Assembly (NCBI RefSeq): GCF_029866045.1
Contig: NZ_JARXAB010000181.1
Location: 1-35,772 of the forward strand
DNA from: Ramlibacter sp.
GTDB lineage: Bacteria; Pseudomonadota; Gammaproteobacteria; Burkholderiales; Burkholderiaceae_C
Reading direction: 5' to 3'
DNA: 35,772 nt
The notes beneath the pieces are model-generated. The model ran no database searches. It saw only the letters and a list, made by a program, of their open reading frames with translations, and was not told where the DNA came from. Positions 10,701-35,045 of this stretch are shown here, piece by piece (the first letter of the stretch is position 1; each line of letters opens with the position of its first letter). A program made the position numbers and the translations under genes.

Positions 10701-12265
10701 GCGTCGAGCGTACGGCGCGCCACATTGCCCCGGCAGCCGATACAGGGCCCTGCCTGCGCAACCAGCCGCAGACGCTGGCCTTGGCGCTGGTAGGACTGGC
10801 GGGTGACCAGGCCACTGGCGAGGGTGATGCTGACCTGCCCCTCCCCCAGTGGCTCGATGCGGGCAGGCGCCAGGCCAGGGCGCTCCGAGGACACCGCACG
10901 CCCTTGGGCGTCGTAGCGCCAAATGGCGACGCGCTGTCCGCGCTCATCGATGAGACCCGTGAGCGCAAGCGGAAAGGTCGTGTCCTCGTAGAGGTACTGA
11001 CGCGAGGCGCCGTCGGCAAAGCTCACTTGCGCCAGGCGACCCGCCGCGTCATAGCCATAGGCCACAGCGGCACCATCGGGCGCCTCGGCCTGCACGATGC
11101 GCCCGGCTGGGTCATGGCGAAAGCGCAGGCTGCGGCCGACGTCGTCGGTCATGGCCTGCAAGCGACCGTCTGCACCCCGCAGGGCCCACACCGAAGGCCC
11201 GCCGCGCGGAGTCACGCGCAGCAGCCGGCCCTGGGCGTCGAAGTCCTCCTGCGTGTCGTCGTTGCCGAGGAAGCGCCATCCGCCTTCCACTTGAACCAGA
11301 CGGCCACCCACGCCGGGCCCGGCGCTCCAGACGCCGTCTACACCGCGGGTGAAACGCAGCACGCGGCCATCGGGCCGCGACACCTGAGCGCGATCCCCTT
11401 GGGCAATGACCTGCATGCCTTGGTTGTGCACCCATCCGGGCAAGGACGAGTTGTAGTGGCGCACCAGAGCCAGGCCGGGCGGCCCGTCGAGATCGGGCTC
11501 ACGCTGGTACTTGTTGCCGTTGCCGGCGAAGACCGGGTTGCCCACCGCCTCGGCCGCGGGCGGGTCGGCACGGCACATTCCGCTGCCGTTACCGGCGCCG
11601 GCGCTGGACCCGGCTGGGCCCGCTCCACCCGCCAGGGTCTCATCGACCTCCATCTCATCGCCCCCCGGGGCGCCCGCGTCGGCCGAGGGACCACCGCCCA
11701 AGGGCGTGCCCGAGGGCAAGGCGGCGTCGACCTGGGGTACCGCGGCCGGGCAACTGCTAAAGCCTCCCGCCCCCAGGACGCAGCCCAGGGGTGGTGTCGG
11801 ATTCGGCAGGCACAGCATGTGAATGTCGCGCTGCGGCCAACTCATGAATCGACCGCCCTCCGCCGTGGCGTGGGAATAAGTCCAGCCCACACCGGGCGTG
11901 CAATGCTCGACCCGGTAGGGCAGGCGCCAGGTGAGGGGGTCGGTGGCGTTGGCCCAGACGGTGCTGACGTGGACCGGGTCGCACCAACTGCTCCCGCGCA
12001 GGTGAGGGAGGTCGCGCAGAAGGAAGAAGTACCCCAGCTGTTGGCCCTCCGGGCAGGCCAAAAAGGAAGTGTTGAAGTAGATCACCGGCGCGGGTGGTGG
12101 TGCGGGTGGTGGTGCAGCCGATGCTGGCGGCGTCTGGGCCATGGTCATCGGGGCTGCCGCCAGCAGGAGCAAACCAGCCATAAGCAGCGCGTGCAAAAGG
12201 CAACGGGGCACGCGGGCAGCACGGACCGCATGGGCCTGCAGAAAAGCGAATGTGGTGATGGACAT
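7475..12265 (-). CDS. Secreted RHS/YD-repeat protein with C-terminal phospholipase A2-like toxin domain
   Basis: This is 1596 residues from the ATG at 12265. An upstream TTG at 12298 is possible but would bury the signal peptide. Residues 1-43 form a long Sec signal peptide (AGLLLLAAAPMTMA, then QT). Residues 50-235 are a Pro/Gly-rich, Cys-containing region, about 241-330 resemble the N-terminal DUF6531 module of RHS proteins, and about 340-1480 are YD/RHS repeats (GYDAAGRL, YSRDAVGRVL and many variants). The core closes with DPLGL, RYLYAEGDPL, DPWGL. The last 107 residues are a separate domain with a glycine-rich putative Ca-loop (GNWGGKHWSGG), CYMRHDLCYD (His1541-Asp1542) and RCDAQL (Asp1555), the PLA2 pattern. 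Residues of about 1100-1148 are a His/Asp-rich insert. Confidence 0.9.
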   Translation of the reverse strand: MSITTFAFLQAHAVRAARVPRCLLHALLMAGLLLLAAAPMTMAQTPPASAAPPPAPPPAPVIYFNTSFLACPEGQQLGYFFLLRDLPHLRGSSWCDPVHVSTVWANATDPLTWRLPYRVEHCTPGVGWTYSHATAEGGRFMSWPQRDIHMLCLPNPTPPLGCVLGAGGFSSCPAAVPQVDAALPSGTPLGGGPSADAGAPGGDEMEVDETLAGGAGPAGSSAGAGNGSGMCRADPPAAEAVGNPVFAGNGNKYQREPDLDGPPGLALVRHYNSSLPGWVHNQGMQVIAQGDRAQVSRPDGRVLRFTRGVDGVWSAGPGVGGRLVQVEGGWRFLGNDDTQEDFDAQGRLLRVTPRGGPSVWALRGADGRLQAMTDDVGRSLRFRHDPAGRIVQAEAPDGAAVAYGYDAAGRLAQVSFADGASRQYLYEDTTFPLALTGLIDERGQRVAIWRYDAQGRAVSSERPGLAPARIEPLGEGQVSITLASGLVTRQSYQRQGQRLRLVAQAGPCIGCRGNVARRTLDAASGLAVEEEDFLGIRHLTTWDPARRLPLARVQAAGRTEAELRQVEWHPQWRLPLRITDADRRAEFFYDEAGRLVQQVLTDLASGRSRRWEWGYDTQGRLVSQVDPRGGRWSYARDAWGQLLMRTDPLGQVTRYSRDAVGRVLSRIDPDGVETRFTYHPRGWLTQIDRGGERTAFSYTPTGRLASVLTPEGESTWFDYDAADQWVAIRDSRGNTRSVTRDSAGAVTAETVTDAQGQQALVRRQRNDAYGQAEAWWGAADVGESLRRDANGRVVGHVNSLGGLTQWERDAQGRVVRLVWPDQAQALLAWGQRGQLAAATDPLGVSTRYHANGLGELVAEESPDIGRLRWQFDAGGQLVAMEDALGRRSTVDRDLLGRPVRLHLADGQQVRLAYDPMGRLLVLEDASGSSSWTRDALGRVTQRAVQVNDHPTRPRRFTLRYTWGPGGLAAITYPSGLEVVYRREGRRIIGIDVRTPASGKSGESLRPWLTDLVHTALGQPQAWRWVSGGSGESRDRGGRDDSYGGNRSDGGFGEHRRFDAAQRQFDADGRVLATEFARYSYDAAGRLATIEQDLFSWPGRRRSDDDSTGHYEGHHDHPHEGRSEGDRDGQYEGHHRGRQRGHDFGHHSRQSAAPTRFTHRLLATYDARHRLVALQGTDQEYRYRYDANGNRLSFVRELRGQGLSAMTAAVSPAVSPAVVARAYRLVPGSNQVQGVTQTLARRPPKARAPSAPSAAGGWTQTTRITFPMRPDGRPASDGLRQLEYDTWGRLSRVRMPHDGRQLEVRYLHNALGQRVFKSEAEPSGQSDAGSTGTAFIHGEPEGPVPAWALLGEYDGGSVRGEGDAEYIWLPTEDGGAIAVGMWRRERLLAIHTDGLGSPRQVTDPEGRLLWQWPYSGFGELGPMEAQIRLPLRFPGQYADAETGWVHHPWRTYLPSQGRFLQPDPLGLVGGWNRYLYAEGDPLSREDPWGLDATRWWPGAQRSFFDGPRNGNWGGKHWSGGIGGGTIGPAPPTDSADACYMRHDLCYDAGGDKSRCDAQLVKELRELPEEVQLWSQPPRPGTEADTLRFRSGALLWFR
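8820..8972 (-). other. His/Asp-rich low-complexity insert within the RHS repeats
   Basis: Between two YD repeats the protein carries about 49 residues rich in His, Gly, Asp, Glu and Arg, with an imperfect internal repeat (GHYEGHH then GQYEGHH). A smaller Gly/Ser/Arg/Asp-rich stretch occurs about 55 residues earlier. The RHS repeats resume normally on both sides and the frame is intact, so this is an insertion within the shell rather than a frameshift. Clustered His-His and Asp residues suggest metal binding or a flexible surface loop. Confidence 0.7.
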
Positions 12266-12510
12266 GGTCTGCGAATCCGGGAATTCGCAGCGATTCAAGA
12301 CCAGCGCGCGCGTCTTCGGCGGCCAGCCTCGTCGTCATTGACAGGGGAACCCGCAAAGGCGTCAGGCTCGTGTGAAGCTGGCGCGCAGGAGCCTCACTCC
12401 CCCAGGGCGACCACAAGAAAGCCGATGGCGCCCACGCTCAAGGCCTATCCACACGGTGGAAGTTGCGCCTGTGGCGCTTTCGAGCAGCAGCGCCTTGGGC
12501 CGCTGGATGC

Positions 12511-12895: not shown

Positions 12896-13921
12896 ATGCC
12901 TCACACCCTCCCCCGCCCTGATCAACGTCCTGACCTCAGCGCTATCACCGACGTGGCCGGTATTTCGGTCGGTCACTTCACCGAGCCCCGCCGGCCCACC
13001 GGCTGCACCGTCGTGCTTGTGCCCGCCGGCGCGGTCGGCGGCGTGGACGTGCGAGGCGCTGCGCCCGGCACCCGCGAGACCGACCTGCTCTCGCCCGTCA
13101 ATACGGTGGACGTGGTGCATGCGGTGCTGCTATCGGGGGGCAGCGCCTTTGGCCTGGACGCGGCCGGCGGCGTGATGCGCTGGCTGGAGGAACAAGGCGT
13201 GGGTGTGGATGTGGGCGCTGCGCGTGTGCCCATCGTGCCCGCTGCGGTGCTGTTTGACCTGCTGGTGGGTGATGCGCGCATCCGGCCGGGCGCCGATGCC
13301 GGCTACGCCGCCTGCGAGGCCGCCTCACACACGCCCCCCGCCGAGGGCAATGTGGGTGCCGGCACGGGGGCCTGCGTGGGCAAGGTGTTTGGCCATGAGC
13401 GCGCGATGAAGGGTGGCATCGGCACGGCGTCAGTGACGGTCGGCGGCGTGACGGTCGGCGCACTGATTGCCTGCAATGCGCTGGGCGACGTGATCGACCC
13501 CGACACCGGCCGGGTGCTGGCCGGCGCGAGAACGGCCGACGGCCAGGGCCTGGCGGACATCCGCCGCAGCCTGCTGGCGGGCGAGGCGCCCATTCCCATT
13601 TTGGCGGGCAGCAACACCACCATTGGCGTGGTGGCCACCGATGCCAAGTTGACCAAGGTTCAGGCCAACCGCCTGGCCCAGGTGGCGCACGACGGCCTGG
13701 CGCGCGCGATCAACCCGGTGCACACGGTGGCCGACGGCGACACCCTGTTCGCTTTGGCGACCGGCCGCCACGACAAGCACCCGGGAATGATGGTGCTGGC
13801 CACCATGGCGGCCGAAGCAGTGGCCCGGGCCACGGTGCGGGCGGTGCGGGCGGCGCAGAGCCTCACCGCGGTGAATGCGCGGGGGCAGACGCAGCACCTG
13901 CCCGCGGCGCGGGATCTGTAG
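12896..13921 (+). CDS. P1/S58-family peptidase, NylC/DmpA-type N-terminal-nucleophile hydrolase
   Basis: This is a 341-residue member of the DmpA/BapA/NylC family. The family cores are clear: ITDVAGISVGH at the N-terminus, LLSGGSAFGLDAA near 78-90, GNVGAGTGA near 151 and AGSNTTIGVVATDA near 237-250. In NylC the precursor cleaves itself between an Asn and a Thr that becomes the nucleophile. The equivalent bond here would be Asn240-Thr241, leaving a large and a small subunit. Members act as aminopeptidases, beta-aminopeptidases or oligoamide hydrolases, and the substrate here cannot be told. The end of the gene overlaps the end of modC by 59 bases in convergent orientation. Confidence 0.85.
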   Translation: MPHTLPRPDQRPDLSAITDVAGISVGHFTEPRRPTGCTVVLVPAGAVGGVDVRGAAPGTRETDLLSPVNTVDVVHAVLLSGGSAFGLDAAGGVMRWLEEQGVGVDVGAARVPIVPAAVLFDLLVGDARIRPGADAGYAACEAASHTPPAEGNVGAGTGACVGKVFGHERAMKGGIGTASVTVGGVTVGALIACNALGDVIDPDTGRVLAGARTADGQGLADIRRSLLAGEAPIPILAGSNTTIGVVATDAKLTKVQANRLAQVAHDGLARAINPVHTVADGDTLFALATGRHDKHPGMMVLATMAAEAVARATVRAVRAAQSLTAVNARGQTQHLPAARDL

Positions 13922-14797
13922 CGGCGCGGCCAAGCGGCAGCACGCGCAGCCAGATCCGGGCGCCCAGCGCCTGCCCCTCGTCGGGCAGCCAGAGGCTGCC
14001 GCCCTCAAACTGCACCCGCAGCCGCTGTCCGTCTGCGTCGCGCTCGGCCACCTCGGCGCTCACCAGCGTACCGGCCTCGATGCCGGCAAGCACCGCCAGA
14101 GACTGATCGACCAGCACCGCGTCGGCAGGCCCCTCGGTGCGCACCTGCCCCGCCTCCAGCACCACCAGGTGGTCCGCCAGACGCGCGAGCTCACCGACCG
14201 AATGGGTGACATACAGCATCGGAATGTGGAGCTCGTCGCGCAGGCGCTCCAGCCAGGGCAGCACCTCGCCGCGCCGCGCCGGATCGATCGCCGACAGGGG
14301 CTCGTCCAACAGCAGCAGGCGCGGGCGGGTGGCCAGGGCGCGGGCAATGGCGACCCGCTGACTCTCCCCGCCAGAGAGCTGGCCGATACGGCGGTCCATC
14401 AGGTGCCCGATCCCCAGCAAGGCGACCGCCTCGGCCAGGGCCTGCGCGGCCCCCGGCTTGCCGGCTCTGCGAAGCCCGAAGTCGAGGTTGCGGCGCACGT
14501 CCAGGTGCTCGAAAAGGCTGGGCTCCTGAAACACATAGCCCAGGTCACGGCGCCAGGCCGGCAGGCACACACCTGCGGCATCGTCCTGCCAGGCCTCCCC
14601 CAGCACGCGCACCTCGCCCCGGGCGGCCGGCTCGAGCCCGGCTACGCAGCGAAGCAGCGTGGTCTTACCCGAGCCCGAAGGGCCGAACAGCACGGTGATC
14701 CCCCGGCCGGGCAAGCGCAGATCCACCGAGAGCCCGAAGTCCGCGCGCTGCAATGACAGCTGCAGATGCAGCCCTGCGTCCGGTTGAAGGCGGTCAC

Positions 14798-14801
<4 letters not shown>
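13863..14801 (-). CDS. modC: Molybdate ABC transporter ATP-binding protein ModC
   Basis: This is a 312-residue ABC ATPase with Walker [10 protein letters not shown] near 40, a Q-loop (VFQEP), signature [15 protein letters not shown], Walker [13 protein letters not shown] and an H-loop (YVTHSVGE). A C-terminal segment (VSAEVAERD, then [12 protein letters not shown]) is the start of the ModC MOP/TOBE molybdate-sensing domain. The domain appears cut short: after [11 protein letters not shown] the protein runs into an Ala/Pro-rich tail, while ModC is usually about 350 residues. The lost part falls where the gene overlaps the convergent peptidase gene. Its ATG overlaps the modB stop by 4 bases, so translation is probably coupled. 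Confidence 0.92.
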
Positions 14802-16521
<1,720 letters not shown>

Positions 16522-24307: not shown

Positions 24308-25111
24308 TCAAAGCACGAACGGCCGGCCCGTCACCGGCGTGCTCGGCACGGCCATGTCCTGCCGGGCCATGATGCCGGCCTCCCAGGCCAGGCGGCCGGA
24401 CTCGACGGCCAGCTTGAAGGCCAGGGCCATGGCCACCGGGTCGCGGGCCTGCGAGACAGCGCTGTTCAGAAGCACCGCGTCGTAGCCCAGTTCCATCGCC
24501 TGCACCGCGTCCTTGGGCGAGCCGATGCCGGCGTCGACCACCAGCGGCACGTCGGGGAAGCGCGCGCGCAGGGTGCGCAGTGCCGTAGGGTTGAGTAGGC
24601 CCTGGCCCGAGCCGATGGGCGCGCCCCAGGGCATGAGGATGCGGCAGCCCGCGTCCAGCAGGCGCTGGCAGGAGACGATGTCGTCCATGCAATAAGGGAA
24701 GACCTCGAAGCCGTCTTTGGCCAAGGTGCGCGCGGCCTCGACCAGTTCGTAGGGGTCGGGCTGCAGGGTGTGCTCGTCGCCCACCACCTCGAGCTTGATC
24801 CAGTGCGTGCCGTAAAGCTCACGCGCCATGCGGGCCAGCGTGACCGCTTCGCTGGCGGTGCGGCAGCCGGCGGTGTTGGGCAAGAGGTGAGCGCCAGTGG
24901 CGCGCACCAGGGCCATGAAGTCGTTGGGCTTGCCATCACCGGCCAGCTGGCGCTTGAGGCCCACCGTCACCACCTGGCTGCCGGATACAGCCACCGCCTG
25001 CTGCAAGACAGCGGGCGAAGGGTAGCCCGCGGTCCCGAGGAAGAAGCGGCTTTGCAGGGTGACGCCGCCGATCGTGAGCGGCGCAGTGGCGGGAGAAGAA
25101 GCAGCGGACAT
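24308..25111 (-). CDS. thiG: Thiazole synthase ThiG
   Basis: This is a 267-residue TIM-barrel enzyme that builds the thiazole phosphate of thiamine from 1-deoxyxylulose 5-phosphate, dehydroglycine and ThiS thiocarboxylate. Conserved segments are [32 protein letters not shown] (Schiff-base Lys106), [18 protein letters not shown] and [12 protein letters not shown]. The family length is normal. It is third in thiO-thiS-thiG, 3 bases after thiS. About 150 bases separate it from the antitoxin remnant, with no clear terminator. Confidence 0.96.
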
Positions 25112-25114
25112 CGC

Positions 25115-25318
25115 TCAGCCTCCGGTGATGGGTTGGAAGGTAAAGACCTGGTCACCTGGCTTCAGCAGGTGGGCGGCGCGGAGGTCGCGGGCCACGAAGT
25201 CGCCGTTGACGGCGGTGGCCAGGGCCTGGGGGGATGCGGCCAGTTGCGCGACGAGGTCGGCCAGGGTGCTGCCTTCGGCCACTTCACGGGCCTGGCCGTT
25301 GACGGTGATGGCAATCAT
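25115..25318 (-). CDS. thiS: Sulfur carrier protein ThiS
   Basis: This is a 67-residue ubiquitin-like beta-grasp protein ending in Gly-Gly (PITGG), the tail that is adenylated and converted to a thiocarboxylate donating sulfur to ThiG. It has the family opening MIAITVNGQ and the late motif LLKPGDQVFTFQP. The start overlaps the thiO stop by 4 bases (ATGA), so the two are translationally coupled. Confidence 0.95.
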   Translation of the reverse strand: MIAITVNGQAREVAEGSTLADLVAQLAASPQALATAVNGDFVARDLRAAHLLKPGDQVFTFQPITGG

Positions 25319-26445
25319 GCAGAGGTCTCCGAGGGAGCCGGCTCGCTGAGCGCGGCGAGGGCTTGTTCCACCAGCGCCGGCCCGATGAGCCAGCCATGCC
25401 GGAACAGGCCGTTGACCTGGGTGAGCCCGGGCTGGGTGTGCAGCACGGGCAAGTTGTCGGGCAGCGCGGGACGCAGGTTGGTGTCGGTGAACACCACACG
25501 TGCCTCGGCCAGTGCCGGCAGCACGCTGTGCGCGGCGGCCATCAGCTCGACGCTGGTGCGCAGGGAAATGGGCGAGCGGTCTTCGCTTTCGATCTCGCTA
25601 GCGCCGACCAGCACCCGGTCGCCCGCGCGCGGCACGATGTAAACGCGGTGGCGCGGATGCAGAAGCCGCAGCGGCCGGTTCAGGCGCAGGCCGGGCGCGT
25701 GCAAATGGACGATTTCGCCGCGTACCCCGCGCACCGACAGTTGCGGCCGGGCGCCGGTGCCACGGACATCGAACACCCAGTCGGCTCGGACAACGCCCTG
25801 GTCGGTGTGGAGGGCGCCGGGCTCGGCCCGCTCCACCGTCCGGCCCCAGTGAAAACGCGCGCCAGCACCCTGGGCGCCGAGGGCCAGCGCCGCCATGGCC
25901 TGCCAAGTGTCGATCTGGCCCTCGCCCTCGAGCAGCCAGGCATGGGCGGGGCCGCGGATGTCGGGCTCGAGCGTGGCGAGTTCTTGCAGGTCGACGCGGC
26001 GCGGCGCGTGGCCTGCAGGCGCCTTGTCGGCCAGCAGGTCAACCACACGTGCGGCGGCGCCTTCGTCACCCCGGTGAGCCAGCAGCAGGGAGCCCTGCGC
26101 GCGCAGGTCTACCGGCCGCAGCGGGCCGCCGTCTTCACCGGCGAAGGGAGCGACGGGCACCGCCGGCAGGCCAGCGAGCAGCTCGGGCCACAGTTGCAGG
26201 GAGCGCAGGCCGAGCTGGTAAACATTGGCGTCGGCACATTCGAGTTCAGAGACAGGGGAGAGCATGCCCGCTGCGGTCCAGCCGGTGGCGCCGCGCACCT
26301 GGGGGCCGGGGGCCAGGTCAAAAACCTCGACCACATGGCCCGCGCGCGCCAGCTGCCAGGCGAGCAGCCGACCCAGTAGGCCAGCGCCGGCTATAGCGAT
26401 ATTCAGGGGTGGCCGTGGGGTGGCCGGATGGGACTGCGCAGACAT
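25315..26445 (-). CDS. thiO: Glycine oxidase ThiO
   Basis: This is a 376-residue FAD-dependent DAO-family oxidase that supplies dehydroglycine for thiazole formation under aerobic conditions. The ADP-binding motif IAGAGLLGRLLAWQLARAGH begins near residue 16. Other family segments are GWTAAGMLSP, RGVRGEIVHL, YIVPRAGDRVLVGASEIE and FRHGWLIGPALVEQAL. The ATG at 26445 is chosen because it lies just beyond the TPP riboswitch. The further in-frame start at 26475 would lie inside the riboswitch. It is first of thiO-thiS-thiG. Confidence 0.94.
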   Translation of the reverse strand: MSAQSHPATPRPPLNIAIAGAGLLGRLLAWQLARAGHVVEVFDLAPGPQVRGATGWTAAGMLSPVSELECADANVYQLGLRSLQLWPELLAGLPAVPVAPFAGEDGGPLRPVDLRAQGSLLLAHRGDEGAAARVVDLLADKAPAGHAPRRVDLQELATLEPDIRGPAHAWLLEGEGQIDTWQAMAALALGAQGAGARFHWGRTVERAEPGALHTDQGVVRADWVFDVRGTGARPQLSVRGVRGEIVHLHAPGLRLNRPLRLLHPRHRVYIVPRAGDRVLVGASEIESEDRSPISLRTSVELMAAAHSVLPALAEARVVFTDTNLRPALPDNLPVLHTQPGLTQVNGLFRHGWLIGPALVEQALAALSEPAPSETSA

Positions 26446-26450
26446 CTCTT

Positions 26451-26547
26451 CTTTCGCCGGTACGAACCGGATCAAGTTCGCGGGTTTGGACTTGCCATCT
26501 CAGCGAGGACCCGCGCGATTTGCGCCAGCCTCCCGCACCCCGGAGCG
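26451..26547 (-). promoter_or_regulatory. TPP riboswitch (THI box) upstream of thiO
   Basis: Reading the minus strand, the conserved THI-box blocks appear in order: CCGGGGTGC, then CTGAGATGG, then ACCCGCGAACTTGATCC and GGTTCGTACCGGCG. These form the pyrimidine- and pyrophosphate-sensing helices. The aptamer ends about ten bases before the thiO ATG, and the purine-rich ribosome site (AAGAAGAG) directly follows its last helix. There is no room for a terminator, so control is most likely at translation initiation. Confidence 0.93.
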
Positions 26548-26668
26548 TGGCCGCATTGTAGGCGGGCCGAGCGCGACGCCCGGTGGCGCGACGCCAGATC
26601 GCGAGGTGGCTGGAGGGCGGGGCGGCCGAGCGGCAAGGCCAGCCCGAGCTCGTGCGACAATCCGCCTC

Positions 26669-26750
26669 GCTCCGGGGTGCACGCCTGATTCGCAGGCCGT
26701 GCTGAGAAACACACCCGAGAACTTGATCCGGTTCGCACCGGCGTAAGGAG
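26669..26750 (+). promoter_or_regulatory. TPP riboswitch (THI box) upstream of thiD
   Basis: A second THI box lies on the plus strand: GCTCCGGGGTGC, then GTGCTGAGA, ACACCCGAGAACTTGATCC and GGTTCGCACCGGCG. It is a compact version, with a short variable arm around 26681-26700. The ribosome site AAGGAG (26745-26750) follows the last helix at once, 7 bases before the thiD ATG, which again points to translational control. By polycistronic coupling it should also govern the genes behind thiD. Confidence 0.93.
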
Positions 26751-26757
26751 AGCCTGC

Positions 26758-27618
26758 ATGCACAACGCCTCGTCTTCGGGCCTTATCGCCCGCTCCCTGC
26801 GCTACCCGCGCGTCCTCACCATCGCCGGCTCGGACAGCGGCGGAGGCGCTGGCATCCAAGCCGACCTCAAAACCTTCTCTGCCCTGGGCTGCTTTGGCAT
26901 GAGCGCGATCACCGCCCTCACCGCCCAAAACACGATGGGCGTGCGCGCCATACATCCGGTGCCGCTGGACATGCTGGAAGCCCAGATTGCGGCGGTGGTC
27001 GAAGACATTGGCGTCGACGCGGTCAAGATCGGCATGCTGCATTCATCGGCGACGGTACGCAGCGTGGCTGCCGCCCTGGACCGGCATGGCCTCAAACAAG
27101 TGGTGTTCGATCCGGTCATGGTGGCCACCAGCGGTGCCACACTGATCGACCGCGAGGCGATTGCGGTGCTGGTGGACATGATGTTCCCCCGGGCCCTCCT
27201 CATCACCCCCAACCTCGATGAAGCCGCCCTGCTGGTGGGCCGCCCCCTGGCCAGCGAGTCCGACATGGAGGCTGCGGCCCAGCAACTGCTGACCATGGGC
27301 GCGCGCGCGGTGCTGCTCAAGGGCGGGCACCTGGCTGGCGATCAGGTGAGCGACCTGCTGCTGACCCCGGGCGCCGGGCCCCTGTGGATGCGGGCGCCGC
27401 GCCTCCACAGCGCCAATACCCACGGCACCGGCTGCACGCTGTCAAGCGCCATTGCTTCGCACCTCGCCCTGGGCGCGGCGCTGCCCGAAGCGGTGGCCCT
27501 GGCGCGGGACTATGTGCGCGGCGCGCTCGAAGCCGGCGCCGCCGTACGCACGGGCGAAGGCAGCGGTCCACTCAATCACGGCTGGCAGCCGGTGGTGACC
27601 CGGACCTTCGCACTGTGA
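26758..27618 (+). CDS. thiD: HMP/HMP-phosphate kinase ThiD
   Basis: This is a 286-residue ribokinase-fold kinase that phosphorylates hydroxymethylpyrimidine and its monophosphate. Family motifs are [20 protein letters not shown] near 20-39, [43 protein letters not shown] and the catalytic loop [14 protein letters not shown] 15-residue N-terminal extension precedes the first strand. It is the first gene under the plus-strand TPP riboswitch, and its stop overlaps the ATG of the LuxE-like gene by one base (TGATG). Confidence 0.96.
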
Positions 27619-28712
27619 TGAAGGCAGAGGCATCCACCCAGACGCAGGTGCCTGCGCTCCTGGCCTTCATTACCCAGGACGGTTGCAGTGACGCCGAGTT
27701 CGACGCCATGGCGCTGCGGCTCTTTGAGCACCAGTACGCACACAACGCGCCCCTGCGGCGCTTTTGCCAGGGACGCGGCGTGACGCCCAGGCGCATCCGC
27801 CATTGGCATGAAATTCCGGCGGTACCGATCAACGCCTTCAAGGAACTCACCTTGAGCTGTGAGCCGCCCGAGGCCTGCGCGCGGGTGTTCATGACCAGCG
27901 GCACCACAAGGGCCGAGGTGAAGGGCAAACACCACCACCCCAACATCGCGGTGTGGGACCTGTCCATGCGGCGCGGCTTCGAGCACTTCTTCATGCAAGG
28001 GCTGCCGCCGCAGGTGCCGATGGCCCTGCTGTTCCCGCCCGAAGAAGAACTCGGCAACTCCTCGCTGGGCCGTTACCTCTCGCAGGCGAAGCGCCTGTTT
28101 GGCGCACCCGGCAGCGGCCACTTCGTGAGCACCCAGGGCATGGACCTGCCGGGGTTGATGGACTTCCTGCACCGCGCTGAAGCGGGTAGCGAGCCGGTCG
28201 CCCTGCTGGGCGCCAGCTACGCCTTCGTGCATTTGCTCGACGCTCTGGCCGCCGAAGGCCGGCAGGTGAAGCTACCCGCCGGGAGCCGGCTGCTGGACAC
28301 GGGCGGCTACAAGCGCCAATCACGCGAGCTCGCGCTGGATGATTTCTACGACCAGCTCTCGCAAGCGCTGGGCCTGCCCCGCGCGCACTGCGTCAATATG
28401 TATGGCATGACCGAGCTGAGCTCGCAGTTCTACGACGCGGGCAACGACACCGTGCCTTCGGTCAAGCGCGGCATGCACTGGATCCGCTCGCGGGTGGTAA
28501 ACCCACTCACCGGCGCAGAGATGCCGCGCGGCCAGGTGGGCGTTCTGGTGCACTGCGACCTGGCCAGCTTCAATTCGACCACCACCATCCTCACCGAGGA
28601 CCTGGGGCGCGCAGTACACGGCGGCTTTGAACTCTTGGGCCGGGCCGAAGGCGCGCAAGCGCGCGGCTGCTCGCTGGCGGTGCAAGAGTTTCTGCAGGGG
28701 GCGCGGGGATGA
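27618..28712 (+). CDS. LuxE-like acyl-protein synthetase / acyl-adenylating enzyme in a thiamine operon
   Basis: This 364-residue protein of the LuxE family (an ANL-type adenylating fold) has FMTSGTT (phosphate loop, 91-97), LLDTGGYK near 225-232, YGMTELS (262-268) and LTEDLGRAVHGGFELLGR (325-342). Cys351, in ARGCSLAV near the C-terminus, corresponds in position to the LuxE cysteine that accepts the acyl group. LuxE activates a carboxylate with ATP, carries it as a thioester and passes it to LuxC. It is translationally coupled on both sides, to thiD and the LuxC-like gene, so it belongs to thiamine metabolism by context. The natural acyl substrate is unknown. Confidence 0.85.
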   Translation: MKAEASTQTQVPALLAFITQDGCSDAEFDAMALRLFEHQYAHNAPLRRFCQGRGVTPRRIRHWHEIPAVPINAFKELTLSCEPPEACARVFMTSGTTRAEVKGKHHHPNIAVWDLSMRRGFEHFFMQGLPPQVPMALLFPPEEELGNSSLGRYLSQAKRLFGAPGSGHFVSTQGMDLPGLMDFLHRAEAGSEPVALLGASYAFVHLLDALAAEGRQVKLPAGSRLLDTGGYKRQSRELALDDFYDQLSQALGLPRAHCVNMYGMTELSSQFYDAGNDTVPSVKRGMHWIRSRVVNPLTGAEMPRGQVGVLVHCDLASFNSTTTILTEDLGRAVHGGFELLGRAEGAQARGCSLAVQEFLQGARG

Positions 28713-30304
28713 ACCCAAGCGCCGCCAATTCCGCAGCCGGGCAGGACAGCGGCGCCCACGCGCGCACAGGGCAGGCGCGTGCACGCTGGGCCGCCGGCCA
28801 CCTGCCGCCCGTTTTTGCCGGCCAGGTGGGGACGCGCGATCTCAAGTTCGGCGACCTCACGGTCACCGTGCCCGCACCCGATGCCGCGCAGATGCAGGCG
28901 CTGGCCACCCATGTGGCGCGCGCCACGCGCGAGGTGCTGCGGCCCCTGCCCGTCTCCAACCTCGTCACCCACATTGACCGGGCGGTGGGTCGTCTGCTCG
29001 ACCCGCAAGACCCGTGGCGGCGCCTGGCCGACGACCTACTGCCACGCGTGACCGGCTACGACGCGCAGATGGTGCAGGTGGCCCTCACGGGCTACCTGCA
29101 GCAGTTCCGCGCGCCGCAGCTGCACCGCTTTGTGACGGAGGACTTTGCCAACCCCAAGGTGCTCGACGAGTTCCAGCCCAGCGCCAAGGGCGGCGCGGTG
29201 CGCGCGCTCGGCCCCACGCTGCTCGCCCACTCCTGGGCCGGCAATGTGCCCGGACTGCCGCTGTGGAGCCTGGCCTGCGGCCTTCTGGTCAAGGCGGGAG
29301 GCATCGGCAAATTGCCCAGCGCCGAGCCGGTGTTCGCCTCGCTCTTCACGCAGCTGCTGGCCGAGGTGCATCCCCCGCTGGCCGAGGCCCTGGCGGTGGT
29401 GTGGTGGAAGGGTGGCGAGGCCGAACCCGCCGCCAGCCTGTACCGCGCCGCCGACTGCGTGCTGGCCTACGGAAGCAACGAGGCCATCGCCCAGGTGCGC
29501 GAGCAGGTACCCGCCAACACCCGCTTCTTGCCCTATGGCCACAAGCTGGGCGTCGCCCTGGTGGGCCGCGACGGGCTGGACCGCCAGCGCGGGCCTGCGC
29601 TGGCGCGCGCAGCCGCCCACGACGTGACCCGCTACGAGCAACAGGGCTGCTACTCGCCGCATGTGGTTTATGTCGAGCGCGGCGGAAACCTGTCTCCACG
29701 CGAGTTTGCGCAGCACCTCGCCAGCGAGCTGGCCGCACTGGCCCGCCAGCATCCGCGCCGCGCATTGGGCCTGGCCGAAGCGGCGGCGGTTGGCGGCTGG
29801 CGTGAGGCGGCCGAGATGCGGGCACTAAGGGGCGCGGGACATGAATTGTTGGGGCATGCCGGCGGGGCCACCCTTGCCTCCACACCCTCATCCACACCCG
29901 CACCCACATCTTCTAACACCCCTGCACCCGCCCCAGCTGGCTGGTCGGTGGCCTATGCCGACCAGCCCCTGCCCCTGGCGCCCAGCACCGGCTGGCGCTG
30001 CATCCAGGTGGTGGCGGTGGACTCTCTGGAGCAGGCCGTCACGCTGATCGCGCCCCACGCGCTCTTTTTGCAAACTGCCGCCGTGGCCGTCGGGCCGGCA
30101 GCGCTCTACCCGCTGGCCGAGCGCTTGGCCGAAGCGGGCATCACACGCGTCACCGCGCTGGGCCGCATGACCGCCCCCGAGGCCGGCTGGCACCACGACG
30201 GCGGCTTCAACCTCGCCAGCCTGGTGCGCATGGTCGATCTGGAAATGGCCGCCGAGCGCGCCGCTGACCGGCTGGCGCCGTATGCGCAGGAGGATGGGCC
30301 GTGA
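28709..30304 (+). CDS. LuxC-like acyl (thioester) reductase in a thiamine operon
   Basis: This 531-residue member of the LuxC acyl-CoA reductase family is related to aldehyde dehydrogenases. The catalytic cysteine is Cys314 in YEQQGCYSPHVVYVE, and an NADPH-side segment (VRALGPTLLAHSWAGNVPGLPLW) is near 165-186. It reduces an activated acyl group to an aldehyde. About residues 386-411 form a Pro/Thr/Ser/Ala linker encoded by repetitive ACACCC/CACCCGC DNA, probably explaining the length above the usual 480 or so. It overlaps the LuxE-like gene by 4 bases and the ATPase gene by 4 (GTGA). No LuxA, LuxB or LuxD is present, so bioluminescence is not the role. Confidence 0.85.
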   Translation: MNPSAANSAAGQDSGAHARTGQARARWAAGHLPPVFAGQVGTRDLKFGDLTVTVPAPDAAQMQALATHVARATREVLRPLPVSNLVTHIDRAVGRLLDPQDPWRRLADDLLPRVTGYDAQMVQVALTGYLQQFRAPQLHRFVTEDFANPKVLDEFQPSAKGGAVRALGPTLLAHSWAGNVPGLPLWSLACGLLVKAGGIGKLPSAEPVFASLFTQLLAEVHPPLAEALAVVWWKGGEAEPAASLYRAADCVLAYGSNEAIAQVREQVPANTRFLPYGHKLGVALVGRDGLDRQRGPALARAAAHDVTRYEQQGCYSPHVVYVERGGNLSPREFAQHLASELAALARQHPRRALGLAEAAAVGGWREAAEMRALRGAGHELLGHAGGATLASTPSSTPAPTSSNTPAPAPAGWSVAYADQPLPLAPSTGWRCIQVVAVDSLEQAVTLIAPHALFLQTAAVAVGPAALYPLAERLAEAGITRVTALGRMTAPEAGWHHDGGFNLASLVRMVDLEMAAERAADRLAPYAQEDGP

Positions 30305-31062
30305 GTGCCGGCGAGGGTGCTTTCCTGGCGATGGACGGCGTGGGCCTGGACTACGGCGGCGTTCGCGCGGTCGATGCGGTGCAGTTGCGCGTCGCCGAGG
30401 GCGAATTTCACTGTCTGCTCGGGCGCAGCGGCTGCGGCAAGACCAGCTTGCTGCGGCTCGCCGCGGGACTGCAGGCGCCCACCCGCGGCGCGGTGTGGGT
30501 GCAGGGCCAGGCACCGGCCGAGCGCCGCGCCGAGATCGGCTTTGTGTTCCAGGCGCCCACGCTGCTGGAGTGGCGCAGCGCGCTGGACAACGTGCTGTTG
30601 CCGATTTCTCTCCTGCGCCGGCCCACCGCGCAAGACCAGGCGCAGGCGCAGAACTTGTTCGATCGAATGAGCCTCCAAGGCTTGCAGCAACGGCGGCCGC
30701 GCCAACTGTCGGGGGGCCAGCAAAGCCGGGTGGCCATCGCGCGAGCGCTCGTCACCGCGCCGCGCCTGCTTCTGCTCGACGAGCCGTTTGCCGCCCTCGA
30801 CGCCATCACCCGCGAAGAACTGCAGCAAGACTTGCTGCGCGCCTGCCGCGAAGCGGGCACCACGGTGCTCTTTGTCACGCACGACCTGGAGGAGGCGCTG
30901 TTCCTCGCCGACGACATTCACCTGATGGCCGAGGGCCGACTGACCCAGACCTTCCGGCCCGAGTTGCCCCAGGCGCGTGGAGCCGACCTGCGCGCCTCTG
31001 CCGGCTTCGCCGCCTGGGGCGGGCGACTGCGTGAGTGTTTGCGGGAAGGAGTTGCCCCATGA
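30301..31062 (+). CDS. ABC transporter ATP-binding protein (TauB/SsuB/ThiZ-type)
   Basis: This is a 253-residue cytoplasmic ATPase with GRSGCGKTS, Q-loop FVFQAPTLLEW, signature [15 protein letters not shown], Walker B LLLLDEPFAALD and H-loop VTHDLEEA. The WRSALDNVLLPI segment is typical of ATPases serving NMT1/TauA-type importers. It starts at a GTG that overlaps the LuxC-like stop and ends overlapping the permease ATG (ATGA). From context it energises uptake of a thiamine precursor. Confidence 0.9.
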   Translation: MSAGEGAFLAMDGVGLDYGGVRAVDAVQLRVAEGEFHCLLGRSGCGKTSLLRLAAGLQAPTRGAVWVQGQAPAERRAEIGFVFQAPTLLEWRSALDNVLLPISLLRRPTAQDQAQAQNLFDRMSLQGLQQRRPRQLSGGQQSRVAIARALVTAPRLLLLDEPFAALDAITREELQQDLLRACREAGTTVLFVTHDLEEALFLADDIHLMAEGRLTQTFRPELPQARGADLRASAGFAAWGGRLRECLREGVAP

Positions 31063-31901
31063 CGCGGAACGCAACCTCCAGCAACCCGCGCAGCGACGTG
31101 CCAGGGGACATGCCCGCAGACATCGTCCGCAGCGCCCCACGCCATCAGGGCCTGCTGACCGCCTTGGCCTCCCTCGCCCTGCTGGCCCTGGCGTTGGCGC
31201 TGTGGGAACTGGCCTCGCGCCGGCTTGGGCTGCCTGCGCTGGTGCTGCCGCCGCCCTCCTCCGTGGCCGCAGCGCTGTGGAAGGGGCTGGCCAGCGGCTA
31301 CTTTCGCCCGCACCTGCTGGCCACCACCTGGAATCTGGCGCTAGGTCTGGCACTGGGCTGCAGCATCGGCTTCCTGGCTGGCATTGCCCTGGCCGAATCG
31401 GCTGCCCTGCGCCGGCTGCTCTGGCCCTGGGTCGTGGTGAGCCAAGTCATTCCGAAGCTGGCGCTCATGCCCCTCTTCATCCTCTGGTTTGGCTTTGGCC
31501 ACACCTCACTGGTGGTGATCACCGCGCTCATTTGCTTTTTCCCGCTGCTGGAGACAACCGCTACCAGCCTGCGCCAGGTGGCGCCCGAGCGACTGGAGCT
31601 GTTTCGAATGCTAGGCGCAAGCCGCTGGCAGACGCTCTGGCAATTGAAGCTGCCCACCGGCCTGCCCGGCGTGCTTGCCGGCCTGCGGGTGGCGGTGATG
31701 CTGGCCCTGGTGGGCGCGGTGGTGGGCGAGTTCATCGGCGCGAGCCAGGGCCTGGGTGCCTTGGTGATTGCGGCGCAGGGCAGCATGGACACGCCGCTGA
31801 TGTTTGCGGTGCTGGTGCTGATTGCGCTGCTTGGCGTCGTCGCCTACCAACTGACCTTGTGGTTCGAGGCCACGCTGCTGCGACGGCATGACCTGAGCTG
31901 A
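31059..31901 (+). CDS. ABC transporter permease (TauC/SsuC/ThiX-type)
   Basis: This is 280 residues from the ATG at 31059, with a GGAAGGA ribosome site upstream. A polar N-terminus of about 35 residues precedes six predicted membrane helices. The ATPase-contact loop is RMLGASRWQTLWQLKLPTGLP, and the preceding VSQVIPKLALMPLFILWFGFG is the conserved core of the BPD_transp_1 permeases for sulfonates, nitrate and pyrimidines. It forms an importer with the ATPase before it and the binding protein after it. Confidence 0.9.
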   Translation: MTRNATSSNPRSDVPGDMPADIVRSAPRHQGLLTALASLALLALALALWELASRRLGLPALVLPPPSSVAAALWKGLASGYFRPHLLATTWNLALGLALGCSIGFLAGIALAESAALRRLLWPWVVVSQVIPKLALMPLFILWFGFGHTSLVVITALICFFPLLETTATSLRQVAPERLELFRMLGASRWQTLWQLKLPTGLPGVLAGLRVAVMLALVGAVVGEFIGASQGLGALVIAAQGSMDTPLMFAVLVLIALLGVVAYQLTLWFEATLLRRHDLS

Positions 31902-31978
31902 GATCGCCCACCTGATTCAACGCCGCCTTGCCCCACCCGCCGAACGATCAAAACGGACTCTCCTTGCTCTCCCTGCCC

Positions 31979-33007
31979 ATGAAGAAAACTCTCACCGCTC
32001 TCCCCTCGCTACGCCCAACACGGCGTGCGTTCCTGGCCGCTCTCGGAGCTTCAGGCCTGGCAGCCTTGACCGCGCACCCACCCGCTCTGGCGCAGGCGCG
32101 TGACCGACTCGTGGTCGCCGGCTGGAGCAAGCCCATCTCGGAAGTGACGCCCTTGCTGGTGGACCAGGACAAGGGCTTCTACCGCGCCCAAGGCCTGGCA
32201 CTGGAGTACCTGCCAGGAGCTGGTGGCGGTGACGCGATCCGCAACATCCTCTCCGGCCAGGGCGATGTGGCCTTCACCGACCCGGGCTCCCTGTTCGCGG
32301 CGCTGGACAAGGGCGAGAAGCTGCGCGCCGTCTACGACATCTACCCGCAGAACGTGTTCAACGTGGTGGCGCTCAAGTCCAGCGGCATCAGCAAACCCGC
32401 CGACCTCAAGGGCAAGCGCATCGGTGTCTACAGCCTGGCCTCGGGCACGCGCCAAAACCTGCTGGTGCTGCTGCACCAGGCGGGCCTGGCGGAGAGCGAT
32501 GTGACCATCGTGGTCACTGGGCTGCTTAACTTCGCGCCGCTGATGCAGGGCCAGGTGGACGCCACCGCCGCCACCGACACCGGCCTGGCGGTGGGCCGCC
32601 TTCGCGGCCTGGGGGAGGTCAATGTCATCGAAGTAGGCAAGAGCCTGCCCGTGTCGAGCGACCTGTTCGTGGTGCGCGAGGAGGTGTACCAGCAGAAAAA
32701 GCCCCTGCTGCGCCGCTTTCTGCGGGCCTACCGGGACGCGTCAGCCTGGATGATCGCCCAGCCCGAGGAGGCCGCGCGCCTGGCCGCTGTCCGCGCCATC
32801 GACGGCAGTGACCCGGCGCTGAACCTCACGATCATCAAGCTGCGCAATGCGTCAAGCCAGTCGGCCTTGACTACCCGCCAGGGCCTGGGCGCGCTCGACT
32901 TGGCCTCGCTGCAGCAGGCTGCCGATGTCTACCGCAAGCTGGGCATGATCGAGAAGCCGCTGCGTATGGCCGAGGTGGTGGCGACCGACCTGCTCCCCGG
33001 ACGCTGA
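31979..33007 (+). CDS. NMT1/TauA-type ABC substrate-binding protein with Tat signal
   Basis: This is 342 residues from the ATG at 31979. The N-terminus has a Tat motif (TRRAFLAALGASG), then a hydrophobic stretch and a probable AQA cleavage site near residue 40. This implies export folded, or with tight quality control. The mature part has the NMT1/SsuA layout: DKGFYRAQGLALEYLPGAGGGDAIRNILSGQGDVAFTD in pieces, then KSSGISKPADLKGKRIGVY and a two-lobed fold. The aromatic-Asn motif (DWTPNTNH-like) that marks classic ThiY proteins binding HMP or formylaminopyrimidine is absent. The ligand is probably related to, but different from, that of ThiY. Confidence 0.85.
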   Translation: MKKTLTALPSLRPTRRAFLAALGASGLAALTAHPPALAQARDRLVVAGWSKPISEVTPLLVDQDKGFYRAQGLALEYLPGAGGGDAIRNILSGQGDVAFTDPGSLFAALDKGEKLRAVYDIYPQNVFNVVALKSSGISKPADLKGKRIGVYSLASGTRQNLLVLLHQAGLAESDVTIVVTGLLNFAPLMQGQVDATAATDTGLAVGRLRGLGEVNVIEVGKSLPVSSDLFVVREEVYQQKKPLLRRFLRAYRDASAWMIAQPEEAARLAAVRAIDGSDPALNLTIIKLRNASSQSALTTRQGLGALDLASLQQAADVYRKLGMIEKPLRMAEVVATDLLPGR

Positions 33008-33083
33008 GGGGACAGGATACCAAAAGCCAAAAGCGATAAGCAGACAAGCCCTCACTTCTCATCCCGCAGCAAGGACGCACACC

Positions 33084-33875
33084 ATGGATTTCAAAGGCCA
33101 AGTGGTTCTGGTCACCGGCGCTGGTCGGGGCATTGGCGCGGCGATCGCGCGCGCTTTTGCCGCCGAGGGTGCTGCGGTGGGCATCAACTACCTGCAGGAT
33201 GAGGCCGCCGCTGCACTGACCGTGGATGAATGCCGCCGGGTCGGCCAAGCCCACGGCGGCGACGCGATTGCCCTGCGCGGCGACGTCACCCGGCCGGGGG
33301 ACTGTGCCCAAATGGTGGAGGCCCTGGTCAGCGAGTTTGGCCGCCTCGATGTGCTAGTGAATAACGCCTTCCGCCCTTATGCCTTCGACCCCGAAACGCG
33401 CAAGCCCCTGGAGGCCCTGACGCTGGCCGACTACCAGGCCCAGTTCGAGGGCGCGGTGGGCGGCGCCCTGCACATGACGCAAGCGGCCCTGCCGCATCTG
33501 CGCCGGCAGGCGCTCGGCGCGGGGGCCGGGGCCATCGTCAATGTGGCCACCAATCTGGTGGAACACCCCGTGGTGCCTTATCACGACTACGCCACCGCCA
33601 AGTCGGCGCTGGTGGGCTTCAGCCGCAACCTGGCGGCCGAACTGGGGCCGCAGGGCGTGCGTGTGAACTGCGTGGCGCCGGGCCTGGTGCACCCAACCCG
33701 CGGCAGCGAAGGCACGCGCGCCAGCTTCCGCGACGAGCTCGCCGCCGCTACCCCGCTGCGCCGCCTGGCACGCCCGGAAGACGTCGCCGGCCCGGTGCTT
33801 TTTTTGGCCTCATCCTGGAGCGGCTTCCTGACCGGGCAGGTCTTGATGGTCGACGGTGGTTTGGTGATGCGCTGA
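33084..33875 (+). CDS. Short-chain dehydrogenase/reductase in the thiamine operon
   Basis: This is a 263-residue FabG-like SDR with TGAGRGIG (11-18), GDVT near 67, NNAF (93-96, where NNAG is usual), Tyr169 and Lys173 (YATAK), and a terminal VDGGLVMR. The residue 13 before the catalytic Tyr, normally Ser, is Thr156 (NVATN). Threonine occurs in some active SDRs. A GCAAGGA site precedes the ATG. It lies 76 bases after the binding-protein gene and 72 before thiE. The best guess is reduction of the aldehyde made by the LuxC-like enzyme to an alcohol, but this is inferred only from context. Confidence 0.85.
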   Translation: MDFKGQVVLVTGAGRGIGAAIARAFAAEGAAVGINYLQDEAAAALTVDECRRVGQAHGGDAIALRGDVTRPGDCAQMVEALVSEFGRLDVLVNNAFRPYAFDPETRKPLEALTLADYQAQFEGAVGGALHMTQAALPHLRRQALGAGAGAIVNVATNLVEHPVVPYHDYATAKSALVGFSRNLAAELGPQGVRVNCVAPGLVHPTRGSEGTRASFRDELAAATPLRRLARPEDVAGPVLFLASSWSGFLTGQVLMVDGGLVMR

Positions 33876-33947
33876 GGCTGCACGATAGACGCCCCAACGA
33901 CACGCCCCACACGGCTCAGACGGCCCCACACTTCAGACGCATTCACG

Positions 33948-35045
33948 ATGTCACTCTCCATCACCCAGCCCCTGCCCCTCTCCAGCAGCCGACTCACGCT
34001 GCTCTCGCCGCCCACAGGCATGGCCCTCGAGGCAGTCCCGGCCTGGGCCGCTTCCCGGCGCCAAGCCACGGGTGACGCGATCTGCGTGGCCGGCGTGGTG
34101 ACGGCAAACCATCCCCTGCACTGGATGGAGACCAGCTATGCACGCGGCTGGGTGTTGCTGCAACCGAGCATTTCGCTGGACGGCGCCTCGCTGGCCAGCG
34201 CCTTCGCCGAGCAGCGTGCGCGCGGCTTCGTCGACGCCGATGCGGCGCTGCTAGCCCTGGCCCGCGCCAGCGGCGTCCTGCCCCGCCTGTCCTGGGGCGA
34301 GGCGCCCGACTTTCCGGTGCTGCGTACGGCGTCCTCGGGAGCAGCCCCGCGCCGCCTCGGCCTGTACGCCATCGTCGACAGCGCCGAGCGCTTGCAAGCA
34401 GTGCTCGATGCCGGCGTGAAAACAGTACAAGTGCGCATCAAGCGTCCCGCCCATCCCGACGCGGTCTGGGAATCGTCACTGCGAGAGCAACTGGCGCGCA
34501 GCATCGCAGCGGCCCGCGCCGCAGGCGCCGAGTTGTTCGTGAATGACCATGCAGATCTGGCCCTGGCGCTAGGCGCCAGCGCCATTCACCTCGGGCAGGA
34601 AGACCTGCTGGCCCTGGGCGACGCCGGCCGCGCCGATCTGGTGGCCACCGGCCTGGCCCTGGGCGTGAGCTCGCACAGCGTGTGGGAGCTGTGCCGCGCG
34701 CGAGCGCTGCCCCTGCGTTACATCGCCTGCGGCCCGGTGTGGGCGACCATCACCAAGGACATGCCCTGGGTGCCGCAAGGCCTGGACAACCTGGCCTGGT
34801 GGGCGCGTCATGCCGGCGCGCCGGTGGTGGGCATCGGTGGAATTCTCACGCCGGCACAAGTCGAGCAGGTAGCTGCCTGCGGCGCAGATGGCGTCTGCCT
34901 GGTGCGTGGCCTGGGCGATGACCCGTCGGCCACATTGCCAGCCTATGCGGCGGCGCTCGAGCGGGGTCGTAAGCGAGCCAGCGATGTGGCGTCAAATGCG
35001 GCACTGATCCAGGAACTCCATCCGAGTCTGGCTCAGACGCAGTAA
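33948..35045 (+). CDS. thiE: Thiamine-phosphate synthase ThiE with a long N-terminal extension
   Basis: This is a 365-residue protein whose last 230 residues are a ThiE barrel: RLGLYAIVDS near 139, VKTVQVRIK, ELFVNDHADLALALGASAIHLGQEDL, GVSSHS, ACGPVWATITKDM and VVGIGGILTPAQ. ThiE joins HMP pyrophosphate and thiazole phosphate to give thiamine phosphate. ThiE is normally about 210-220 residues. The first 135 or so are extra (ICVAGVVTANHPLHWMETSYARG, ARGFVDADAALLALARASG), and I cannot assign them to a family. In the phosphate/pyrophosphate loop the usual RDK is RIK. It is last in the plus-strand thiamine operon, and its end overlaps the convergent membrane protein gene by 13 bases. Confidence 0.9.
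   Translation: MSLSITQPLPLSSSRLTLLSPPTGMALEAVPAWAASRRQATGDAICVAGVVTANHPLHWMETSYARGWVLLQPSISLDGASLASAFAEQRARGFVDADAALLALARASGVLPRLSWGEAPDFPVLRTASSGAAPRRLGLYAIVDSAERLQAVLDAGVKTVQVRIKRPAHPDAVWESSLREQLARSIAAARAAGAELFVNDHADLALALGASAIHLGQEDLLALGDAGRADLVATGLALGVSSHSVWELCRARALPLRYIACGPVWATITKDMPWVPQGLDNLAWWARHAGAPVVGIGGILTPAQVEQVAACGADGVCLVRGLGDDPSATLPAYAAALERGRKRASDVASNAALIQELHPSLAQTQ

Follow-up and report, generated by a model that had tools for sequence, protein, structure and literature searches.

In luminous bacteria LuxE activates a carboxylic acid and hands the resulting thioester to LuxC for reduction, and in thiamine salvage ThiY binds a degraded thiamine pyrimidine, N-formyl-4-amino-5-aminomethyl-2-methylpyrimidine (FAMP). 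Bacterial riboswitches for thiamine pyrophosphate (TPP) repress when TPP is plentiful. The pyrimidine vitamers named for salvage in PMC10881298 are 4-amino-5-hydroxymethyl-2-methylpyrimidine (HMP), 4-amino-5-aminomethyl-2-methylpyrimidine (AmMP) and FAMP. Here we describe an operon of Ramlibacter sp. in which a LuxE-like and a LuxC-like gene, an importer and a short-chain dehydrogenase/reductase (SDR) stand together with thiamine genes behind a TPP riboswitch. It lies in a stretch of 35,772 nucleotides (contig NZ_JARXAB010000181.1 of assembly GCF_029866045.1), the whole of which is called the window. Its best explanation is probably that the operon is repressed by TPP and salvages the pyrimidine half of thiamine, in which process a pyrimidine acid would be converted to HMP by the LuxE-like protein, the LuxC-like protein and the SDR.

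An earlier reading of the letters alone (the sequence-only reading) had seen eight co-directional genes behind a THI box, and we found all of them in their place. The TPP riboswitch (THI element) at 26663..26766 (+) matches RF00059 over model positions 1-105 with 53.6 bits and E 1e-9, the search space being a 601-base stretch. On the same strand follows thiD (26758..27618) for the HMP kinase/HMP phosphate kinase (PF08543, E 1.6e-93, 313 bits against a curated cut-off of 27; TIGR00097, 313.7 bits, cut-off 204.95), then the genes of a putative LuxE-like carboxylate-activating protein (27618..28712; PF04443, E 8e-16, 58.3 against 24.9 bits) and of a putative LuxC-like acyl-thioester reductase (28709..30304; PF05893, E 8.3e-81, 272.3 against 21 bits). 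The importer of the ATP-binding cassette (ABC) type consists of an ATPase (30301..31062; PF00005, E 1.1e-32), a permease (31059..31901; PF00528, E 1.6e-30) and an NMT1/THI5-type binding protein that starts at 31928 (TTG) or 31979 (ATG) and ends at 33007 (PF09084, E 2.5e-48; NMT1 165.3 against 20.5 bits). The SDR, the proposed aldehyde reductase (33084..33875; PF13561, E 9.2e-57), and the thiamine-phosphate synthase ThiE (33948..35045; PF02581, E 3.7e-39, residues 144-321; TMP-TENI 134.4 against 27 bits) complete the set, and about 140 residues of ThiE ahead of its domain (33948-34376) are without any Pfam match. The four junctions from thiD to the permease are overlaps of 1, 4, 4 and 4 bases, just as the 1-4 bases read before, and the gap to the binding protein is 26 bases (77 with the ATG start), followed by two gaps of 76 and 72 bases. 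The 3' strand of helix P1 carries GGAG (26747-26750), which overlaps the Shine-Dalgarno sequence AAGGAG 7 bases before the ATG of thiD. Since these bases are shared with the ribosome site, translational control is the simplest reading, and TPP binding would hide the ribosome site of thiD; a single-sequence fold of the window aptamer did not show the P1 helix.

To follow the distribution of this arrangement, 250 genomes of the family of the window were searched with the LuxC-like protein as first set, and 23 of them gave a match at E 1e-20. A TPP aptamer was present upstream in 20/20 loci of this set (48.6-61.1 bits), reaching the Rfam gathering score in 11; the upstream stretch of L054 was inspected by eye and is not part of this count. 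Among named genome contigs the best 80 of 360 LuxC relatives were kept, from Ramlibacter, Variovorax, Acidovorax, Polaromonas, Comamonas, Achromobacter, Bordetella, Azospirillum, Bosea and others. A covariance model from 16 aptamers (alignment A3, two of them from the window) detected a sense-strand aptamer before the cassette in 73 of these loci; six of the remaining seven start at a contig edge and the seventh, L153, has no aptamer. A plasmid collection contributed 27 records with a LuxC relative over at least 80% of its length (13 from Pantoea, nine from Azospirillum and one each from Priestia, Pseudomonas, Niallia, Lactiplantibacillus and Levilactobacillus). All ten of these records that were opened carry an aptamer ahead of the cassette, and nine aptamers in 8 of 9 plasmid loci reach the Rfam gathering score, with up to 85 bits. 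Priestia megaterium, a member of the Bacillota, agrees with the window in all six genes and in their order, behind an aptamer of 49.0 bits (E 1e-8, Rfam model). By comparison, no aptamer was seen in eight loci (3.2-4.0 kb) that hold other genes matching LuxC, the best score being 8.2 bits (E 1.1).

The full order luxE-luxC-ATPase-permease-binding protein-SDR was found in 88 of 102 loci, a number that includes at least three records twice (L035/L121, L043/L122 and L036/L130). Eleven of the other 14 are cut by contig ends, among them L056 of genome G093, and three have no importer (L120, L140 and L146). Carriers are found among alpha-, beta- and gammaproteobacteria and Bacillota, and the cassette is scattered rather than universal, as a close LuxC (E under 1e-200) was found in six of 397 genomes of the phylum. 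Because two phyla share this gene order and the riboswitch, the arrangement is beyond chance, and the operon is real and no one-strain peculiarity. The sequence-only reading had proposed a search for LuxE-LuxC pairs under TPP riboswitches and had named synteny in a single strain as the outcome that would speak against it; the 20/20, 73/80 and 10/10 loci with an aptamer and the widely kept gene order came out on its side. In most loci luxE follows directly behind the riboswitch, and thiD stands in between in Ramlibacter-like genomes and Schlegelella (counted at the stricter threshold; L100 adds a weak thiD match at the looser one).

Some loci deserve mention in their own right. On a plasmid of Pseudomonas silvicola (L186:5688-8429) the riboswitch is present and the reading frames of luxE and luxC are broken, and in genome G674, which holds L153, ThiC reads in pieces over several frames. 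At L056 a distant LuxC is followed by an ATPase relative, perhaps a diverged or a different system. Five genomes of one genus of the phylum (g246; L163 and L165-L168) encode open reading frames (ORFs) 822-833 residues long whose match to LuxC is distant (E about 1e-37 to 1e-41), perhaps fused LuxE-LuxC proteins, and no TPP aptamer was found in the 4 kb scanned.

The importer is the variable part of the cassette: some loci have the NMT1/THI5-type ABC system, some have no importer, and in others an NCS2 nucleobase symporter takes its place. The binding protein of the window is 62% identical to its counterpart from Priestia, and its relatives in the PDB include an unnamed exported protein as best match (3qsl, E 8.6e-16) and, at low scores, THI5 (4h6d, E 2.5e-9) and ThiY (3ix1, E 4.7e-6). 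In L120, L140, L146 and genome G563 (L160) luxC runs straight into the SDR gene with no importer between, and the four opened Pantoea records have luxE-luxC-SDR with no importer between or beside them. A divergent flavin monooxygenase gene lies beside the importer-less cassette in L140 (6470-7573, -) and L146 (2066-3262, -); the L140 protein, which was the one scanned, comes closest to SfnG and RutA without reaching either cut-off. The same cassette, with LuxC proteins 99.8% identical, is shared by Lactiplantibacillus plantarum and Levilactobacillus brevis, in which an NCS2 nucleobase:cation symporter precedes luxE, luxC and SDR. On the megaplasmid of Niallia taxi two tandem TPP aptamers (L182:4540-4836) are followed by thiW, an NCS2 symporter gene, luxE, luxC and SDR. 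As this symporter is 59% identical to the lactobacillar one, the replacement is seen in two lineages. With importers that differ among loci, the constant core consists of riboswitch, LuxE, LuxC and SDR.

Within this core the candidate catalytic residues are conserved. Cys351 of the LuxE-like protein, near the C-terminus, is invariant in 35/35 sequences and aligns with the KGCS motif of LuxE (7xc6_E), whose cysteine we take to be the nucleophile, and Cys314 of the LuxC-like protein, also invariant in 35/35, aligns with QQAC of LuxC (7xc6_A); both are candidate nucleophiles. The YxxxK motif of the SDR is represented by Tyr169 (35/35) and Lys173 (15/15). The alignments used comprised 18 of 23 LuxC (A1), 20 of 22 LuxE (A2) and 18 of 20 binding proteins (A4), and that of the SDR (A5) 15 sequences, 14 from the first set and the window and one from L140. 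A structure model gave the LuxE-like protein an ANL/PaaK-type fold and, as in EhpF, this is an ANL fold without the C-terminal domain. Over 35 loci the pairwise identities of the three proteins LuxE, LuxC and SDR rise and fall together (correlations of 0.87 to 0.92), as expected of co-inherited genes. Public annotation calls the three proteins long-chain fatty acid--CoA ligase or acyl-CoA synthetase, acyl-CoA reductase, and 3-oxoacyl-ACP reductase or SDR. The scores of the long-chain fatty-acid equivalogs of NCBIfam are far from being reached (LuxE 55.1 against 550 bits, LuxC 72.5 against 750 bits), and judged from these sequence comparisons the pair of the window may work like LuxE/LuxC without being the fatty-acid pair.

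In order to see which half of thiamine is concerned we compared the gene complement of carriers and non-carriers. Among the 250 genomes of the family both ThiC and ThiG were found in 157 (15 carriers), ThiG without ThiC in 11 (seven carriers), ThiC without ThiG in three (no carrier) and neither in 79 (one carrier, the doubtful G093). Among thiazole makers the cassette thus goes along with the absence of ThiC (7/11 versus 15/157, odds ratio 16.6, p 6e-5), also when counted by genus with some genera on both sides (6/10 versus 9/87, p 7e-4), where the neglect of relatedness in both p values has to be added to the points against our reading that are collected below. In the draft genome of the window (93% complete) no ThiC turned up, and the presence of ThiG in the window, identified at 24335-25075 by PF05690 (E 9.2e-103) within the gene at 24308..25111 (-), means that the organism is able to make its own thiazole, separately from the operon, as had been read before.

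A larger set of 70 carriers was compiled from 25 of the 31 distinct genomes of the family and phylum searches, six matches near E 1e-40 from the phylum search being dropped as a different family, and from 45 of the 80 named loci, of which 38 belong to isolates and seven to alphaproteobacterial drafts; the remaining drafts were not included, nor was L121, which is the same genome as L035. An adjoining luxE was shown for 69 of the 70, G093 having none. ThiG is present in 66/70 at E under 1e-90 and in 69/70 at E 0.001, and 17 carriers have ThiG without ThiC; none lacks ThiG alone. ThiM is found full-length (E under 1e-70) in ten carriers, above the cut-off in 12 and at E 0.001 in 29, and thiamine pyrophosphokinase (TPK) in 0/70, in a search that matches 7/14 control genomes. 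TenA occurs in 26/70 at E under 1e-30 and in 32/70 at E 0.001. Of the 17 ThiC-less thiazole makers one has a full-length ThiM and four a strong TenA. The missing kinases ThiM and TPK argue against the thiazole alcohol or free thiamine as product, and the phyletic pattern suggests the pyrimidine half, with which the nucleobase symporter of some Bacillota agrees. The pyrimidine side favoured in the sequence-only reading is supported by the retained ThiG, the mostly missing full-length ThiM, the wholly missing TPK, the NCS2 symporters and the over-representation of the cassette in thiazole makers without ThiC. Its argument that ThiD leads the operon applies to a subset, mostly Ramlibacter-like, and does not carry over to other genomes, where luxE comes first behind its own riboswitch. 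ThiC is missing in 8/10 genomes with thiD at the head of the operon versus 13/60 elsewhere (p 6e-4), a comparison that is not independent because these are mostly Ramlibacter.

From the computed genes and their order, the riboswitch matches, the conserved candidate catalytic residues and the phyletic pattern we infer the reactions, the substrate, the ligand of the importer and the repression by TPP as follows. A pyrimidine carboxylate would enter by way of the binding protein and the ABC importer; the simplest candidate is 4-amino-2-methylpyrimidine-5-carboxylate, an oxidised product of thiamine breakdown. The LuxE-like protein would adenylate the acid and hold it as a thioester on Cys351, from where the acyl group would be accepted by Cys314 of the LuxC-like protein and reduced to the 5-aldehyde. 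The SDR would then form HMP, which would be phosphorylated twice by ThiD and joined by ThiE to the thiazole phosphate from the ThiG pathway, and the TPP made in this way would shut the operon. Of the earlier interpretation a conserved TPP-regulated LuxE-LuxC-SDR pathway serving thiamine supply has found support, and the exact substrate and the three reactions remain a proposal.

Several points weigh against this salvage route. The window aptamer lies 0.7 bits below the gathering score of RF00059 (54.3), which is why a default Rfam scan of the whole window lists nothing, and L153 is the sole well-covered locus of the 80 without a riboswitch. The LuxC of G093 is distant (38% identity) with no luxE detectable in the 863 bases ahead. 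The absence of ThiC alone, with which the sequence-only reading had expected the cassette to correlate, shows no association with it (ThiC in 15/23 carriers and 145/227 non-carriers). This test shows nothing because 79 of the 90 ThiC-less genomes of the sample are also without ThiG; it becomes informative when it is restricted to thiazole makers. Of the 70 carriers 49 have ThiC (one of them in fragments), so that the route is usually an addition; precursor transporters, too, often occur in prototrophs according to PMC3766115. The alphaproteobacterial drafts L120, L140 and L146 have ThiE, no ThiC, no real ThiG and no ThiM, and what matches Thi4 in them is just fragments covering no more than 72 of 235 residues, and as many of the genomes are drafts, single absences are weak. 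The best subfamily match of the NCS2 symporter is xanthine permease, below its cut-off, and NCS2 permeases also carry purines. Finally, neither the ring nor the position of the carboxylate is fixed by any result.

This last point leads to a different substrate or last step on the pyrimidine side, with the carboxylate elsewhere on the ring, a conjugate, or the aldehyde used otherwise, for the phyletic and transporter evidence points to the pyrimidine half and not to the atom that bears the carboxylate. We hold this to be unlikely, as the SDR accompanies LuxE-LuxC also in loci that have lost the importer, which fits the sequence carboxylate, aldehyde, alcohol, and as ThiD, which uses HMP, is encoded first in the operon of the window and of its near relatives. 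Identical chemistry could turn thiazole acetate or another thiazole carboxylate into hydroxyethylthiazole, and the ten carriers with full-length ThiM and the ThiW in the operon of Niallia would suit this. The chance of such a thiazole route is slim, given that 60/70 carriers are without full-length ThiM, that 66/70 make thiazole with ThiG and that the 17 carriers without ThiC but with ThiG face none of the opposite kind; if ThiW is an importer of a thiazole precursor, a second thiazole route in Niallia would also be redundant. A reduction of thiamine acetic acid to intact thiamine, attractive for the three drafts without ThiC, ThiG and ThiM, has little probability as well, since TPK is absent in 70/70 carriers and matched in 7/14 controls, so that free thiamine would need another kinase (the ThiK type was not searched for), and since import runs through NMT1- or NCS2-type systems, neither of which is known to import thiamine. 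For a TPP-regulated detoxification or antivitamin handling, in which the aldehyde or carboxylate of a thiamine analogue would be reduced, we see nothing specific beyond the 49/70 carriers that already have ThiC for HMP; with the cassette enriched in ThiC-less thiazole makers and with riboswitches that repress at plentiful TPP we regard it as very improbable. That a fatty-acid reductase pair as in luminous bacteria came by accident to stand behind a TPP riboswitch would agree with the public names long-chain fatty acid--CoA ligase and acyl-CoA reductase and is extremely improbable, considering the far too low equivalog scores and a riboswitch link that recurs in two phyla and was not seen in the eight short loci with other LuxC-matching genes.

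For the salvage of a pyrimidine carboxylate to HMP, the balance tips slightly towards the wider claim that it is a second bacterial route to the thiamine pyrimidine, a reductive salvage of an oxidised breakdown product via an enzyme-bound acyl thioester, which would be encoded by a mobile cassette of three enzyme genes, combined with exchangeable importers in Pseudomonadota and Bacillota, and would replace ThiC in some lineages. If true, the carboxylate route would add a new vitamer to the vitamin B1 cycle, explain TPP synthesis in some bacteria without ThiC and show what LuxE/LuxC-like proteins do that now carry fatty-acid annotations in Azospirillum, Pantoea, Priestia and lactic acid bacteria. 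Auxotrophy for HMP is called the commonest vitamin B1 auxotrophy in PMC11452348.

Next to the operon a second, divergent TPP riboswitch (26432..26552, -; RF00059, 49.4 bits, E 1.1e-8), likewise below the gathering score, precedes a thiO-thiG set. Its first gene is a putative thiO-like ORF (25315..26475, -), named after the sequence-only reading; relatives of it occur in 14 of 101 loci and often adjoin thiG. The ThiG gene described above encodes the thiazole synthase of this set. A search with model R1 found the back-to-back aptamer pair also in L077, L078 and L084. Elsewhere in the window a 1607-residue RHS-repeat protein is encoded at 7475-12298 (-) and an ABC importer whose binding protein belongs to SBP_bac_11 at 13863-16425 (-); the substrate of this importer might be molybdate.

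Compared with the LuxC-LuxE pair of luminous bacteria (PDB 7xc6), the proteins of the window share the aligned cysteines (Cys351 and Cys314) and differ in their low scores for the fatty-acid families and in their neighbours, a TPP riboswitch, an importer and an SDR instead of luciferase genes. EhpF/EhpG of phenazine (D-alanylgriseoluteic acid) biosynthesis gave no profile match at E 0.1 and serve the formation of an antibiotic. With ThiXYZ/ThiY and TenA, which salvage FAMP and AmMP, the window has in common a binding protein of the NMT1/THI5 type, of which ThiY (3ix1) is a weak relative, whereas its importer is tied to a reductase chain and strong TenA matches are limited to 26/70 carriers and to 4/17 of those with ThiG and without ThiC. 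In the TPP regulons of PMC3766115, as far as the text is available, the same riboswitch family governs thiamine synthesis and precursor transport; its main text has no word starting with 'lux' or 'reductase' and does not name LuxE/LuxC, and the available text of PMC6478431 names no LuxE/LuxC thiamine genes. Among the literature matches listed, with subscription papers outside the scope, no description of LuxE/LuxC in thiamine metabolism was found, and a LuxE/LuxC salvage route for the pyrimidine of vitamin B1 appears to be undescribed. The salvage of precursors under a TPP riboswitch is already known, and what would be new here are its enzymes, which the searched literature had not linked to thiamine.

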